The position numbers and the translations under genes were made by a program. The notes under the pieces are model-generated. The model was not told the DNA's origin and ran no database searches. It saw nothing but the letters and a program-made list of their open reading frames with translations. Positions 22,584 to 64,000 of a stretch of 64,000 nucleotides of DNA are shown here, piece after piece; position 1 is the first letter of the stretch; the number at the start of each line of letters is the position of its first letter. Source of the DNA: Scylla paramamosain (lineage: Eukaryota > Arthropoda > Malacostraca > Decapoda > Portunidae); NCBI RefSeq assembly GCF_035594125.1, contig NC_087181.1, positions 11,627,500-11,691,499 of the forward strand, read 5' to 3'.

Positions 22584-23438
22584 TTAGCGGCCATAAGTAT
22601 GATATGGGTTGTAGTTACCGTATCCACCTTGCCAATTATATCTATTACCGTAGCTGCCATAAGTTTGATATGGGTTGTAGTTATTGTATCCATTGTGCCA
22701 ATTATACCTATTAACGTAACGGTTTCCTCTGTATATGAGTGGCCGTGATCCTCCGTGACTTGTCAGTGCACCCTGGAGGAGGCAAAGGGAGGGACGACAT
22801 GAGTAACGGAAGTAAAGGGAGAGGAAATAGGTGAAGGGAAACTACTGTAAAGCTGTTTATGAAGTCAAATAGTTTTGTAAGCTCTTTGTAATCCTTCTGT
22901 AAACAATAATCCCTTTGCTGATCATTTGTAATTCTTTTGTAAATTAAAATGTTAATTATTTTTCTCCCCGTTAAACTGTTAACATAATCATGAAAATACC
23001 CTTGAAAGTCTCATGAATTTATACTGTACCCTTTGTGAACCCTTTGCAATAATTTCTAAAGAATTCTTCACCGTTTAACTATTGTTAGAATTAAGAAAAA
23101 ACACCCTTGAAAGTCCCATGCACTTACACTGAACCCTTTGTAAAACCTTTTTCAGTCACTTTGTAAACTTTGTAAGCCTTTTGAAAACTTTAACCCCTTT
23201 GTAATCCCTTGTGACGAGTTTCTCCTTACCGTAGTGGGATATCTGGACGGCAAGCCATCGATGACAAAACGGGGCACATACATTGCATCATGCTGGTGTG
23301 AAGCATCTGGAATTAAGACAGGAAGGTTTGGTTTACCGCTTTCAAGGTCACTTCGCATTCTCTCTCTCTCTCTCTCTCTCTCTCTCTCTCTCTCTCTCTC
23401 ACCATCACCACAGACAACACAACAATCAGGCGACTCAT
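22584..23438 (-). pseudogene. Secreted Gly/Tyr-rich peptide gene, copy a (exon 1 damaged)
   Basis: Three-exon gene read from the minus strand. Exon 3 (22584-22772) is intact, 62 residues, with acceptor 'cctcctccag' and two 22-residue modules of the type 'GNRYNWQGGYGNYNPYHTYG'. Exon 2 (23230-23306) has good splice sites (AG / GTAAGG) and encodes 'DASHQHDAMYVPRF'-type sequence. Exon 1 keeps the ATG (23436-23438) and 'MSRLIVVLSVVM', but the rest of the signal peptide and the normal donor are missing: a (CT)n tract (23359-23400) abuts codon 12. A cryptic GTGAGA donor exists there but would leave phase 0 against a phase-1 exon 2. The promoter with TATA box is intact. Probably a recent pseudogene, or it uses an unseen alternative start. 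Confidence 0.7.
23359..23400. repeat. (CT)n invading exon 1 of peptide gene copy a
   Basis: In copies c, d and e the exon 1 coding end and donor lie between the CT tract and the 'accatcacc' bases. Here CT directly touches 'accatcacc'. Confidence 0.9.
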
Positions 23439-23496
23439 TGTGCTTCTTGTCCTGTCCTCACGTGCTTGCTGAGAGAGTGACCCAAACCTTTCCCTT

Positions 23497-23508
23497 CCTT
23501 ATATACCT
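23497..23508 (-). promoter_or_regulatory. TATA box of peptide gene copy a
   Basis: AGGTATATAAGG on the minus strand, about 60 bp upstream of the ATG, with TCACTC and TCAGC initiator-like bases 27-35 bp downstream. The same element precedes copies c and d. Confidence 0.75.
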
Positions 23509-23509
23509 C

Positions 23510-24195
23510 TGTTATACCACTGTCCTCCTACGGCCTCCAGTACGCCACACAGTTGATATTCTCTAAGTTACCTCTGCGTTGTGAGTCTTAAGGAAAGGGA
23601 CAGATTTCGCCTTCCTCTGTACATGTTTTGGTTGGTGAGCTCATCGTCTGCAGCTTCACCTTAGGGTAAAATTTGCTTTCAACATTTCTTTCCTATTTCT
23701 ACGTTACCTGCGTAGCGTGGACACGTGATAATGGTCGGCTGGTCAAGTAAAAATTTTCCTACTTTACGTGTTGAGTGCAACGGATAGTATTACTTTTGTT
23801 GCTTGGTGTTAGGTGCTGTTGTGCCTCCTTTGGTTCAGGGAGGAATGCGGTGTTGTGTGCAGTGCTTTGACCGGCCCTGCGTGGTGTGTGAATTTGCTTT
23901 GTTCTTTTTTAAGGGTGACTTTTTGTAAAGCTGAAAGAGATTTTAGTTGTTTCTGTGTTTTTTTTCTTATTTATTTTTTCTTATTGGTAATGTATAGTTG
24001 TTAGTGTTTTGAATTTGCTTTGTTGTGTCGTAATATTTATTTTTTTGCGAAACTGAAAAGATAAGTTGTGTTTTCATGTTTTTTTTTTTACTTAATCATT
24101 TATTTTTTTCCTAACTGATAATGAAAGGTCCTTGGTAAATTAATATCATAATCATGAAATCATCCTCGAAAGTACCATTAATTTTTACTAGACTT
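23510..24195. other. Upstream region of peptide gene copy a
   Basis: About 650 bp conserved with 42182-42820 (copy c), including a 'gtagcgtggacacgtgata' stretch with a CACGTG E-box core near 23722. No other gene seen. Confidence 0.4.
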
Positions 24196-24245
24196 AGATG
24201 TCCTATCCACTCCTACGCTCATGATACCACCCTGCACTTTTCCGA
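24196..24245 (+). mobile_element. LINE D fragment with altered YADD motif
   Basis: Plus-strand 'CPIHSYAHDTTLHFS' matches 'CPIHSYADDTTLHFS' of the LINE at 46790 on the other strand; the first catalytic Asp pair reads His-Asp. Only about 50 bp survives, directly joined to the 15-bp array. Confidence 0.65.
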
Positions 24246-24735
24246 GTGTTGGACGTTTTGGCCACGGACGGTTTGGCCACGGACGTTTTGGCCAAGAACG
24301 TTTTGGCCAAGAACGTTTTGGCCAAGGACGTTTTGGCCACGGACGTTTTGGCCAAGGACGTTTTGGCCAAGGACGTTTTGGCCACGGACGTTTTGGCCAC
24401 GGACGGTTTGGCCACGGACGTTTTGGCCAAGAACGTTTTGGCCAAGGACGTTTTGGCTAAGGACGTTTTGGCCACGGACGTTTTGGCCAAGAACGTTTTG
24501 GCCAAGGACGTTTTGGCCACGGACGTTTTGGCCAAGAACGTTTTGGCCAAGGACGTTTTGGCCACGGACGTTCTGGCCAAGGACGTTTTGGCCACGGACG
24601 TTTTGGCCAAGAACGTTTTGGCCAAGGACGTTTTGGCCAAGGACCTTTTGGCCAAGGACGTTTTGGCCAAGAACGTTTTGGCCAAGGGCGTTTTGGCCAC
24701 GGACGTTTTGGCCATTGGCCACCAAACTAGGACGT
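24246..24735. repeat. 15-bp minisatellite (GGACGTTTTGGCCAA), about 31 units
   Basis: Units vary at the last base (C or A) and the second base (G or A), giving a frequent 45-bp higher-order order: '..ccac', '..ccaa', 'gaacg..ccaa'. Each unit combines the palindromes TTGGCCAA and AACGTT. All six frames stay open because 15 is divisible by three; the predicted FWPRT repeat protein is not believed. Confidence 0.95.
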
Positions 24736-61974: not shown

Positions 61975-62580
61975 CACCTGTATGTCCCTTACTGCCCCTT
62001 ACTGTCCCTCCCCTGCTGTCTACTGTTCTCTCCTGTCTTTTACCGACTCTGTCTCTCTCTGTCCTGTCCCTTCCATTCTATTCCCCTTGTCTCTTATTTC
62101 TGTCTTTTCTGTCTTGTTGTATGTTTGTTTTCTGTTTCTTATTATTCTCTCTGTTTCCTGTGTTCGTTTTTGTTTTGTCGTCGTTTGTTCCTTTCCTGTC
62201 CTCTTTTACCTTCCTGTTTCTGTCGCTTGTCCTTCTGTCTTTATTTCTTGTCTCTCTGTCGTGTTTTCTGTCATTTTCTGTCCTTTCCTACTCGTTCTTG
62301 TCTTCCTGTTTTCATCTTTTACCTTTCCTTGTCCCTTTTCTGTTCTGTTTTATCCTCCTGTTTTCGTTTTTCTCCTCCTGTCCTCTCTATCTCTCCCTGT
62401 CTCCTCCTTTGCCTTCCTGTCCTCTTTACCTGTCTTCGTGTTTTGTCCTCATGTCAAAAGTTAAGGGGTTTGTTTATGTATTTAATTTTATTTTATTCAT
62501 TTATTTATTTATTTATTTACTTATTTATTTGTTTATTTTTATTATTTATTTATTTATTTATTTTATTTTTTTTTACTCTT
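61975..62580. repeat. CTGTC-rich tract and (TTTA)n, copy e
   Basis: Near-identical to 55850-56405. TTTA-type run 62487-62570. Confidence 0.75.
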
Positions 62581-62681
62581 TAAGAAAATGTATAAAGTGA
62601 TGTGTGAATTAAAGGAATGTGCGTGCTAGAAGTTGGAGACTGAGCAAGTGATGGTGGTGGTGGTGAAGGATGCCTTCTGAA

Positions 62682-62840
62682 CACACACACACACACACAC
62701 ACACACACACACACTGCACTGAACATTTTTTTTTATTTGTTTGGTTGTTGTTGTTGTTGTTGTTGTTGTTGTTGTTGTTGTTGTTCTAGCTGTTCGTCTT
62801 TCTTTTTTCTTCTTTTTCTTCTTTTTCTTCTTCTTGCCTT
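62682..62840. repeat. (CA)n, (TTG)n and short TTC runs
   Basis: CA 62682-62714, TTG 62743-62784, then interrupted TTC to 62836. Unexpanded counterpart of 56522-57763. Confidence 0.9.
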
Positions 62841-62869
62841 TTTCCTCCATCCCCTCTCCTAATCCTCCA

Positions 62870-63425
62870 TGAAGTTAACAGTAATACACTAAAGTTAGCC
62901 ATTCAAAAAGTAATTTTCTCTGTTTGCCGGGAGAAAACGAAAGAAATAGTTTTAAGAGGTAACCATTGTAAATGTGAATCATTATTTATGTCAGGTTTCC
63001 TCACAGTACGGGTCGGAACCCAAAGCTGGGACGCAAGCTGCTGTTCAGTGAGTCGCCACATCATAAAGAGATATATGAACAATAATTAAAAATTAGTAGT
63101 GTGTGTGTGTGTGTGTGTGTGTGTGTGTGTGTGTGTGTGTGTGTGTGTGTGTGAATCAGGTTCCGTATCAGAGGTATAAAGGTACAATAGAACAGACGTA
63201 CAGGGTTGTGAAGGGAGTATATAAAGTCAAACATGGTCTTCATAGAATAAAATCTGAAGAACACTGGTTTATGTACAGAAGACTCCCTGCCTGATGAAGC
63301 AGCTTTCCTGTCTTTCTAACAAAAAACTAAATTACTTAACGCTACATTAACAGGAGGAAACATTTTGGTAGAAAACAACAAACACACACACTAAAACACA
63401 AACAAATAAAGAAACAAAAATAAAG
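62870..63425. repeat. Block M 5' part and (GT)n spacer, last copy
   Basis: Second copy of 57800-58350, with GT at 63098-63153. Confidence 0.6.
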
Positions 63426-63929
63426 ATAAATAATTAAAGAATCCAGACTTTAATAATTTTTCAACTTACATTGCACTTTTCCTTTTCTTCCTTTTTATTT
63501 CCTTTTTCTCCATTTACATACCTTTTCATTTAATTTCCTTCCGTTTCTTTTTTCATAACTTTTCCTTTTCCTTTCTTTTTTTCTTATCTTCTTTTATTCT
63601 TCTTATCCTTTCACATCAACGTACCTCAACCCACATCGCTTTTTTCTTCCTCTGTCCTCTTTTTTTTTTTTTTCATTCCTCATTTTTTCTTTCAGTTTTT
63701 CCTTTTCTTGATTCTTCAACCCATTCTCTTTCTTTTTCTCATCTTCTTCATTCCTCAACCAAGCCTTTCTCTGTATTTCCCATCTTCTCATTCCATTCTT
63801 TATTTCAACTCGATCTCTTTCCGTATCTCCTCTTTTCATTCCTCTTTCCACATCACCGTACCTCAGCGCAATCTTCTGTACAGCAACATTTCGTGCTGTT
63901 CTCACCTCGTAGCCTCGCCAATCTGTACC
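63426..63929. other. 3' flank of peptide gene copy f
   Basis: Pyrimidine-rich, same type as below the other copies. Confidence 0.35.
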
Positions 63930-64000
63930 TTAGCGGCCGTACGTACGATATGGGTTCTAGTTACCGTATCCACCGTACCGATTATACTGATTGCCGTAAC
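63930..64000 (-). pseudogene. Secreted Gly/Tyr-rich peptide gene, copy f (exon 3 end only, nonsense; cut by window edge)
   Basis: The last 23 codons of exon 3 are visible and match copy d closely. A Tyr codon has become TAG (plus strand 'ggttctag', where copy d has 'ggttgtag'), which would remove the last ten residues. The original stop is at 63930-63932. The rest of the gene lies outside the window, so whether it still makes a shortened peptide cannot be judged. Confidence 0.65.

Follow-up and report, generated by a model that had tools for sequence, protein, structure and literature searches.

The 64,000-nucleotide window analysed here, that is, the whole stretch C31:11627500-11691499 of an assembly of 1,210,610,942 bases in 234 contigs, contains a tandem family of small three-exon genes predicted to encode secreted, cysteine-free peptides rich in glycine, tyrosine and asparagine. 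By searching the window with its own copies and with profiles of the core promoter, exon 1, exon 2 and exon 3, we recovered the six minus-strand copies that an earlier note on this DNA had proposed: the exon-3 profile matches at six places (E 3e-40 to 7e-20), as well as at the second repeat units of copies a and c, and the exon-2 profile matches at five (E 8e-23 to 3e-20). Letters a-f denote the window copies from left to right, g-k those on contig C31 outside the window and l-o those on contig C45. Our leading, if tentative, interpretation is that the genes encode peptides that undergo birth-and-death evolution and serve, most likely, in host defence.

A tandem family of three-exon genes

Two window copies, c and d, are open through all three exons (115 and 92 residues, respectively), as had been claimed, and define the architecture of the family:

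Copy c TATA box TATATAAGG: 42170..42178, minus strand, 67 bases before the ATG
Copy c exon 1: 42033..42111, minus strand, start codon and signal peptide, phase-1 end, donor TCTG/GTGAGT
Copy c exon 2: 41870..41949, minus strand, RVAR site and variable segment, phase-0 end
Copy c exon 3: 41208..41396, minus strand, Gly/Tyr/Asn-rich, two in-frame 22-residue units, YGR-stop (profile search)
Copy d TATA box: 53332..53340, minus strand
Copy d exon 1: 53195..53273, minus strand
Copy d exon 2: 53017..53093, minus strand, with RVAR
Copy d exon 3: 52494..52616, minus strand, one unit, YGR-stop (profile search)

The four introns anticipated from the letters alone (42032-41950, 41869-41397, 53194-53094 and 53016-52617) proved exact, with GT..AG ends, and the proposed signal-peptide exon does end in phase 1, after which exon 2 ends in phase 0. 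By eye, the N terminus is signal-peptide-like, a hydrophobic stretch of about 22 residues being followed by a segment beginning DxSH. An AATAAA lies about 600 bases past the stop in a and c and at other distances in other copies. If expressed, these would be genes that ordinary gene finding may miss, with exons of 77-189 bases.

A promoter and first exon shared by all six window copies, as the earlier note had it, were found at only four (a, c, d and e): the exon-1 model of 79 positions has 78-79 of them matched in c, d and e and the first 39 bases in a. The same model gave four further weak plus-strand matches (E 0.0035 to 0.33) inside GTG repeats, and none of the four models matched at E<=1 in five first-order shuffled versions of the window.

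Fifteen copies at two loci

Genome-wide searches scored the best candidates only and skipped simple repeats. With the promoter and exon 1 of d as a DNA query, ten places were recovered, eight on C31 and two on C45; exon-profile scans of 29 genomic stretches and a genome-wide search at the DNA level, using exon 3 of d together with the 84 intron bases that precede it, agree on 15 copies, nine of them outside the window. A protein query of 36 residues from exon 3 of d returned 19 places at E<=10, namely the 15 copies and the second units of a, c, j and k, and among the best-scored candidates of the exon-3 DNA and protein searches of the whole assembly there was no more distant relative. Eleven copies lie on C31 over about 108 kb (about 11,595.5-11,703.6 kb, in the order j, k, i, a, b, c, d, e, f, g, h), where eight scanned stretches contain Ns and further copies may be hidden in them. 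The other four lie on C45: l at 7,313 kb and n at 7,321 kb on the minus strand, o at 7,384 kb and m at 7,391 kb on the plus strand.

An open three-exon frame is kept in six copies, c (115 residues), d (92), j and k (114 each) and l and m (93 each), whose exon lengths differ by multiples of three (3 and 66); c, j and k carry the in-frame 22-residue duplication. The remaining nine (a, b, e, f, g, h, i, n and o) are broken and, set against the intact six, offer at the two loci a built-in comparison of functional with neutral change. The broken copies within the window are:

Copy a: 22584..23438, minus strand, exon 1 with 39 matching bases and then a long GA run; exon 2 (23230-23306) and exon 3 (22584-22772, profile search) open
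Copy b: 30032..30708, minus strand, only exon 2 and exon 3 (30032-30154, profile search) present, the latter with an in-frame TGA
Copy e: 58855..59864, minus strand, three exons, early TGA in exon 3 (58855-58977, profile search)
Copy e altered TATA box, reading CATATAGGG: 59934-59926, minus strand
Copy f: 63930..64000, minus strand, partial exon 3 with TAG (profile search)

Copy f is cut short by Ns that start one base past the window end, inside the copy, with 5,000 Ns in the stretch beyond, perhaps an assembly gap. Outside the window, exon 2 of g is longer by one base and exon 3 of h is interrupted by a TAA. The profile scan of the window found no promoter and no exon 1 for b, nor was any match to them found for i, n and o in the scanned stretches around these copies, which are b-like and carry the same exon-3 TGA triplet as b. 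Because all four share this triplet, the b type was probably dead before it spread to C31 and C45, the alternative being exchange between the contigs. An alternative first exon for b-type copies was considered, since the upstream DNA of b, i, n and o is alike, and rejected, as all four carry the same TGA.

Part of the tandem array reflects a segmental duplication of about 9.4 kb, each half of which holds one peptide gene and one 530-codon gene:

Segmental duplicate with copy a: 15011..24192, matching 33564-42827 at 94.8%
Segmental duplicate with copy c: 33564..42827, partner of 15011..24192

Such an origin does not extend to the six window copies as a whole, since it holds for a and c only. 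On C45, about 7,312-7,393 kb, two inverted arms carry, in mirror order, a live peptide gene, a dead b-type copy and a 500-507-codon gene, with the live genes l and m about 78 kb apart.

Conservation of promoter and exons relative to introns

The identity tests reported here and below give uncorrected p values, take sites as independent and use overlapping pairs. Between c and d, identity is 142/150 (94.7%) in the core promoter, 72/79 in exon 1, 61/77 in exon 2 and 107/123 in exon 3, as against 67/82 in intron 1, 294/397 in intron 2 and 102/138 in the 3' flank. Exons 1 and 3 together reach 88.6%, compared with 75.0% for the introns and 3' flank combined (p 3e-5); taken singly, the contrast with intron 2 is clear for the core promoter (p 1e-8) and exon 3 (p 0.003) and not for exon 2 (p 0.39), and exon 1 against intron 1 gives p 0.11. 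Promoter and early exon 1 are 96-98% identical in 50-base blocks from -115 to +34, a near-identity that can reflect regulatory constraint or gene conversion. The first 15 codons of c and d are identical in DNA, and the 7 non-synonymous and 0 synonymous changes of exon 1 fall mostly toward the end of the signal peptide.

Among the 17 pairs in which both members have a promoter, identity in the core promoter is higher than in intron 2 for 14 (exceptions e-g, j-k and c-k) and identity in exon 1 for 15 (exceptions l-m and c-k), often by small margins; the exon-1 slice of e in this comparison is 9 bases too long. The eight C45-C31 pairs of intact copies have core promoters 93-97% identical, with p values against intron 2 of 0.0015 for l-c and 4e-7 for l-d. 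Exon 3 is significantly more conserved than intron 2 in five of eight tested pairs, a set treated as live although it includes the broken copies e, g and h. In d-g, d-h and g-h it reaches 96.7-97.6%, against 79-84% for intron 2 (p 8e-5 to 1e-7; for d-g 119/123 against 309/389, for g-h 120/123 against 318/401), and the other two pairs are d-e (p 0.004) and c-k (p 0.008). It is this identity above the intron level in promoter, exon 1 and some exon-3 comparisons, together with the 15 copies, that argues for a three-exon family of secreted peptides.

Exon 2 as a possible variable cassette

Exon 2 behaves differently. Between c and k it matches at 60/77 positions against 442/457 in intron 2 (p 9e-8), while exon 3 is identical at 189/189; for a and c, the segmental sisters, exon 2 matches at 61/77 and intron 2 at 442/457 (p 4e-7), with exon 3 at 186/189. 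The same excess divergence is seen in l-j (p 0.0002) and l-k (p 0.0008) and not in l-c, l-d or d-g. Of the seven tested pairs that include an intact copy, four thus have an exon 2 far more variable than intron 2, as do three of the five in which both copies are intact; pairs with m, which is nearly identical to l, and j-k were aligned but lie outside this set. None of the six pairs of dead b-type copies (n-b, n-i, o-b, o-i, b-i and n-o) has the excess.

In exon 2 of c-k, synonymous (0.35) and non-synonymous (0.23) distances are both raised, suggesting that a short block was replaced and that amino-acid selection did not act alone. By eye, the block is about 33 bases long and spans the processing site, which reads RVAR in c, d, l and m, HDAM in j, k and a, RVPR in b and HVAKR in e. 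One might therefore regard exon 2 as an exchangeable cassette that, in live copies, varies how the peptide is cut, via local exchange or selection; we consider this unlikely on balance, and set it out as a testable claim on how processing diversifies.

Peptide composition, processing and possible roles

Tyrosine (18-23%), glycine (15-22%) and asparagine (12-18%) are constant in the exon-3 peptide of the six intact copies. Cysteine is missing from all six peptides, and c and d thereby bear out the prediction of a final exon without it. The enrichment in glycine, tyrosine and asparagine that the earlier note had described is confirmed, while its arginine part applies mainly to d (15%, against 6-8% in c, j, k, l and m); what stands of the proposed family is accordingly a small, secreted, Gly/Tyr-rich three-exon one, with 15 copies at two loci and six open, without the label "Arg-rich". 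The predicted mature part has 57-92 residues and 6.4-10.6 kDa (4.7-7.3 kDa for exon 3 alone), with a net charge of +6 in d, +3 in c, +2 in j and +1 in k, l and m.

We suggest the following course from gene to peptide. Exon 1 would provide a TATA-driven start and the signal peptide, and hence transcription and secretion. Exon 2 would form a short pro-segment that ends in a furin-type RVAR, at which cleavage may occur, in four of the six intact copies (c, d, l and m). Exon 3 would yield the Gly/Tyr/Asn-rich peptide, whose C terminus, Tyr-Gly-Arg followed by a stop in the codons of all 15 copies, the six intact ones included, is a possible amidation signal: a carboxypeptidase and an amidating enzyme could convert it to Tyr-amide. 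Blood cells or epithelia may then release glycine-rich, weakly to clearly basic peptides that bind microbial surfaces, and the family would have grown on the two contigs through duplication, both tandem and segmental, with many copies dying.

The same termini would suit a signalling role, in which the genes form a furin-trimmed, Tyr-amidated hormone or neuropeptide-like family. RVAR in four and YGR-stop in all six intact copies agree with this; nevertheless, by eye the six contain no repeats bounded by dibasic sites, their mature part is long and variable, j and k have no RVAR and many copies are dead. To our knowledge, moreover, the family resembles no decapod neuropeptide. We therefore hold signalling to be improbable.

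Composition, in turn, could suggest cuticle, matrix or adhesive peptides, tyrosine-cross-linked or binding chitin or mineral in the shell. Tyrosine at 14-23%, glycine at 14-22%, absence of cysteine, strong hydrophilicity and low charge in four of the six intact copies all fit such a role, as does the in-frame 22-residue duplication. Against it, Pfam at E<=10 returned for c and d neither an R&R chitin-binding domain nor WAP nor any other domain, bar DUF1218 in d (E 0.1, below the cut-off); so far as we know, a short RVAR pro-segment and fast exon-2 change would also be unusual in structural proteins. A cuticle or matrix role is unlikely in itself and ranks close behind defence.

Host defence remains our preferred, if tentative, interpretation because copy turnover and composition resemble those of known glycine-rich antimicrobial families. 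If expressed, the genes would be a candidate lineage-specific defence family in a probable crab.

Several observations nonetheless weigh against this interpretation. By Nei-Gojobori counts over whole frames in the 15 pairs of intact copies, the ratio of non-synonymous to synonymous distance (dN/dS) is 0.73-1.45 in 14 pairs, and the 0.36 of l-m is based on 4 changes; c and d differ by dN 0.16 and dS 0.12 in a DNA-based alignment (0.19 and 0.16 in a protein-based one), and l and c by 0.13 and 0.15. With ratios near 1, purifying selection on the protein is not demonstrated. Exon 3 does not significantly exceed intron 2 in l-c, m-j and l-d, and among dead pairs it does so in b-i (p 0.012), although not significantly in n-b and o-b; b and i are identical over exon 3 and 200 bases of 3' flank bar one 2-base gap, which suggests recent exchange between them. 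The openness of exon 3 is uninformative when taken alone: d has two stop-free reverse frames, and one other forward frame of exon 3 in c, as in d, holds a single stop. The weak charge of four of the six intact peptides counts against a plain membrane-active cationic peptide, and the furin site is absent in j and k. Finally, the promoter motif scan yielded nothing convincing. The promoters of a, c, d and e contain no common vertebrate kappa-B, STAT, AP-1, C/EBP or ecdysone motif; a loose Relish-type motif occurs in 4/4 with 3.07 expected, a GATA hexamer in 4/4 with 0.62 expected per promoter, and GGRAAWYYYY, also in 4/4, was composed after seeing the sequence.

Such observations bear on two further explanations. 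The family may be dying or non-coding, its open frames being chance survivors of duplicated segments, as nine broken copies of 15, dN/dS near 1 and uninformative exon-3 frames would allow; yet six copies at two loci have kept a frame over three exons, and conservation exceeds that of intron 2 in the promoter, in exon 1 and, for some pairs, in exon 3 as well. We judge this about as improbable as a signalling role. Any fast-evolving secreted family, including reproductive proteins such as seminal ones, might show the copy turnover, the dN/dS near 1 and the rapid change of exon 2 seen here, but no specific pointer to the gonad emerged, and this appears the least probable of the explanations considered.

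Comparison with known peptide families

The earlier note had called the family undescribed-looking, and this holds as far as the databases compared: c and d belong to no Pfam or NCBIfam family (nothing above cut-off in NCBIfam), and d has no convincing PDB match. In PDB searches, d drew ribosomal proteins at E 0.32 or worse and a six-protein profile drew prion chains at E 0.35; we attribute both to chance or composition. The window yielded no Rfam match at the gathering threshold and no tRNA, and a search of full-text literature (text without figures) for six strings taken from c and d found no occurrence.

The best working analogy is the nlp-29 cluster of C. elegans, whose six antimicrobial genes encode Gly/Tyr-rich peptides and have duplicated rapidly (PMC2453101). 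The cluster shares with the present family small clustered Gly/Tyr-rich peptide genes, recent within-genome duplication and rapid change. It belongs to another phylum, no sequence link is claimed, and the function of nlp-29 was shown by infection experiments, whereas that of the present family is predicted.

Among crustacean peptides, armadillidins of terrestrial isopods are likewise linear, cysteine-free and glycine-rich, and armadillidin CE is also Tyr/Arg-rich; synthetic forms are described as lacking C-terminal amidation, implying that the native form is amidated (PMC5031766, PMC7017220). They are reported there as Oniscidea-specific, with one sequence per transcriptome and one exception, and the A. 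vulgare form has 47% glycine and GGGF(H/N)(R/S) repeats (PMC5031766, PMC7017220), in contrast to the 14-22% glycine of our six intact peptides, none of which has that repeat. In the one pair compared, BLASTP of exon 3 of d against armadillidin CE gave no alignment at E<=100. The six intact peptides differ from glycine-rich multidomain antimicrobial peptides of the crustin/hyastatin type, which are Cys-rich or carry a WAP domain, in having no cysteine, and c and d in having no Pfam WAP match; the lack of the R&R domain likewise separates c and d from R&R arthropod cuticle proteins.

Other decapod peptides were set beside the family by description only. Spgly-AMP and GRPSp of mud crab are crab glycine-rich peptides too, although Spgly-AMP is given as 3.98 kDa, against 6.4-10.6 kDa for our predicted mature parts, and GRPSp has cysteine (PMC11767717, PMC9409781). 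Procambarin and the crayfish haemocyte peptide are decapod, glycine-rich and represented by several similar sequences (PMC8234337, PMC8155518, PMC9391574), the haemocyte peptide rising after beta-glucan (PMC8234337). Sparamosin, also of mud crab, is described as having 76 residues, with two predicted helices in the mature part.

Neighbouring genes and repeats

A second tandem family on the minus strand accompanies the peptide genes (828-2378, 7231-8781, 16688-18280 and 35247-36839). Its four open single-exon frames of 516-530 codons are 97-99% alike and encode proteins with acidic SDEWE repeats, a C-terminal hydrophobic stretch and, internally, two repeats of about 150 residues. Two members were without a Pfam match above cut-off, and one member each gave no convincing PDB match and no viral-contig match; the predicted structure of the neighbouring 528-residue protein was unusable (mean predicted local distance difference test score, pLDDT, 29.6). 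Compared in pairs, the members in the window give dN/dS values of 0.19-0.73; two of them set against two C45 copies give 0.43-0.62. Eight near copies, one with a TAA, stand beside peptide genes on C31 and C45, and more distant matches lie on other contigs (among the best 82 of 90 candidates).

Elements of long interspersed nuclear element (LINE) type lie at 46508-47254, 11540-12553 and 48433-49095, with RVT_1 matches (E 3.6e-20 and 3.5e-21) and a sub-threshold endonuclease, such domain matches being obtained in three of nine frames scanned. LINE elements as known from crabs suggest a decapod, probably a brachyuran crab, as host. A degenerate minisatellite at about 1-600, 5680-7370, 14970-16380 and 33180-34940 gives, in several reading frames, open stretches of RSTVLGPRYSVHDI type, and a trinucleotide repeat of about 1.2 kb (about 56580-57790) reads as poly-Ser, Leu, Phe, Arg, Lys or Glu depending on frame.

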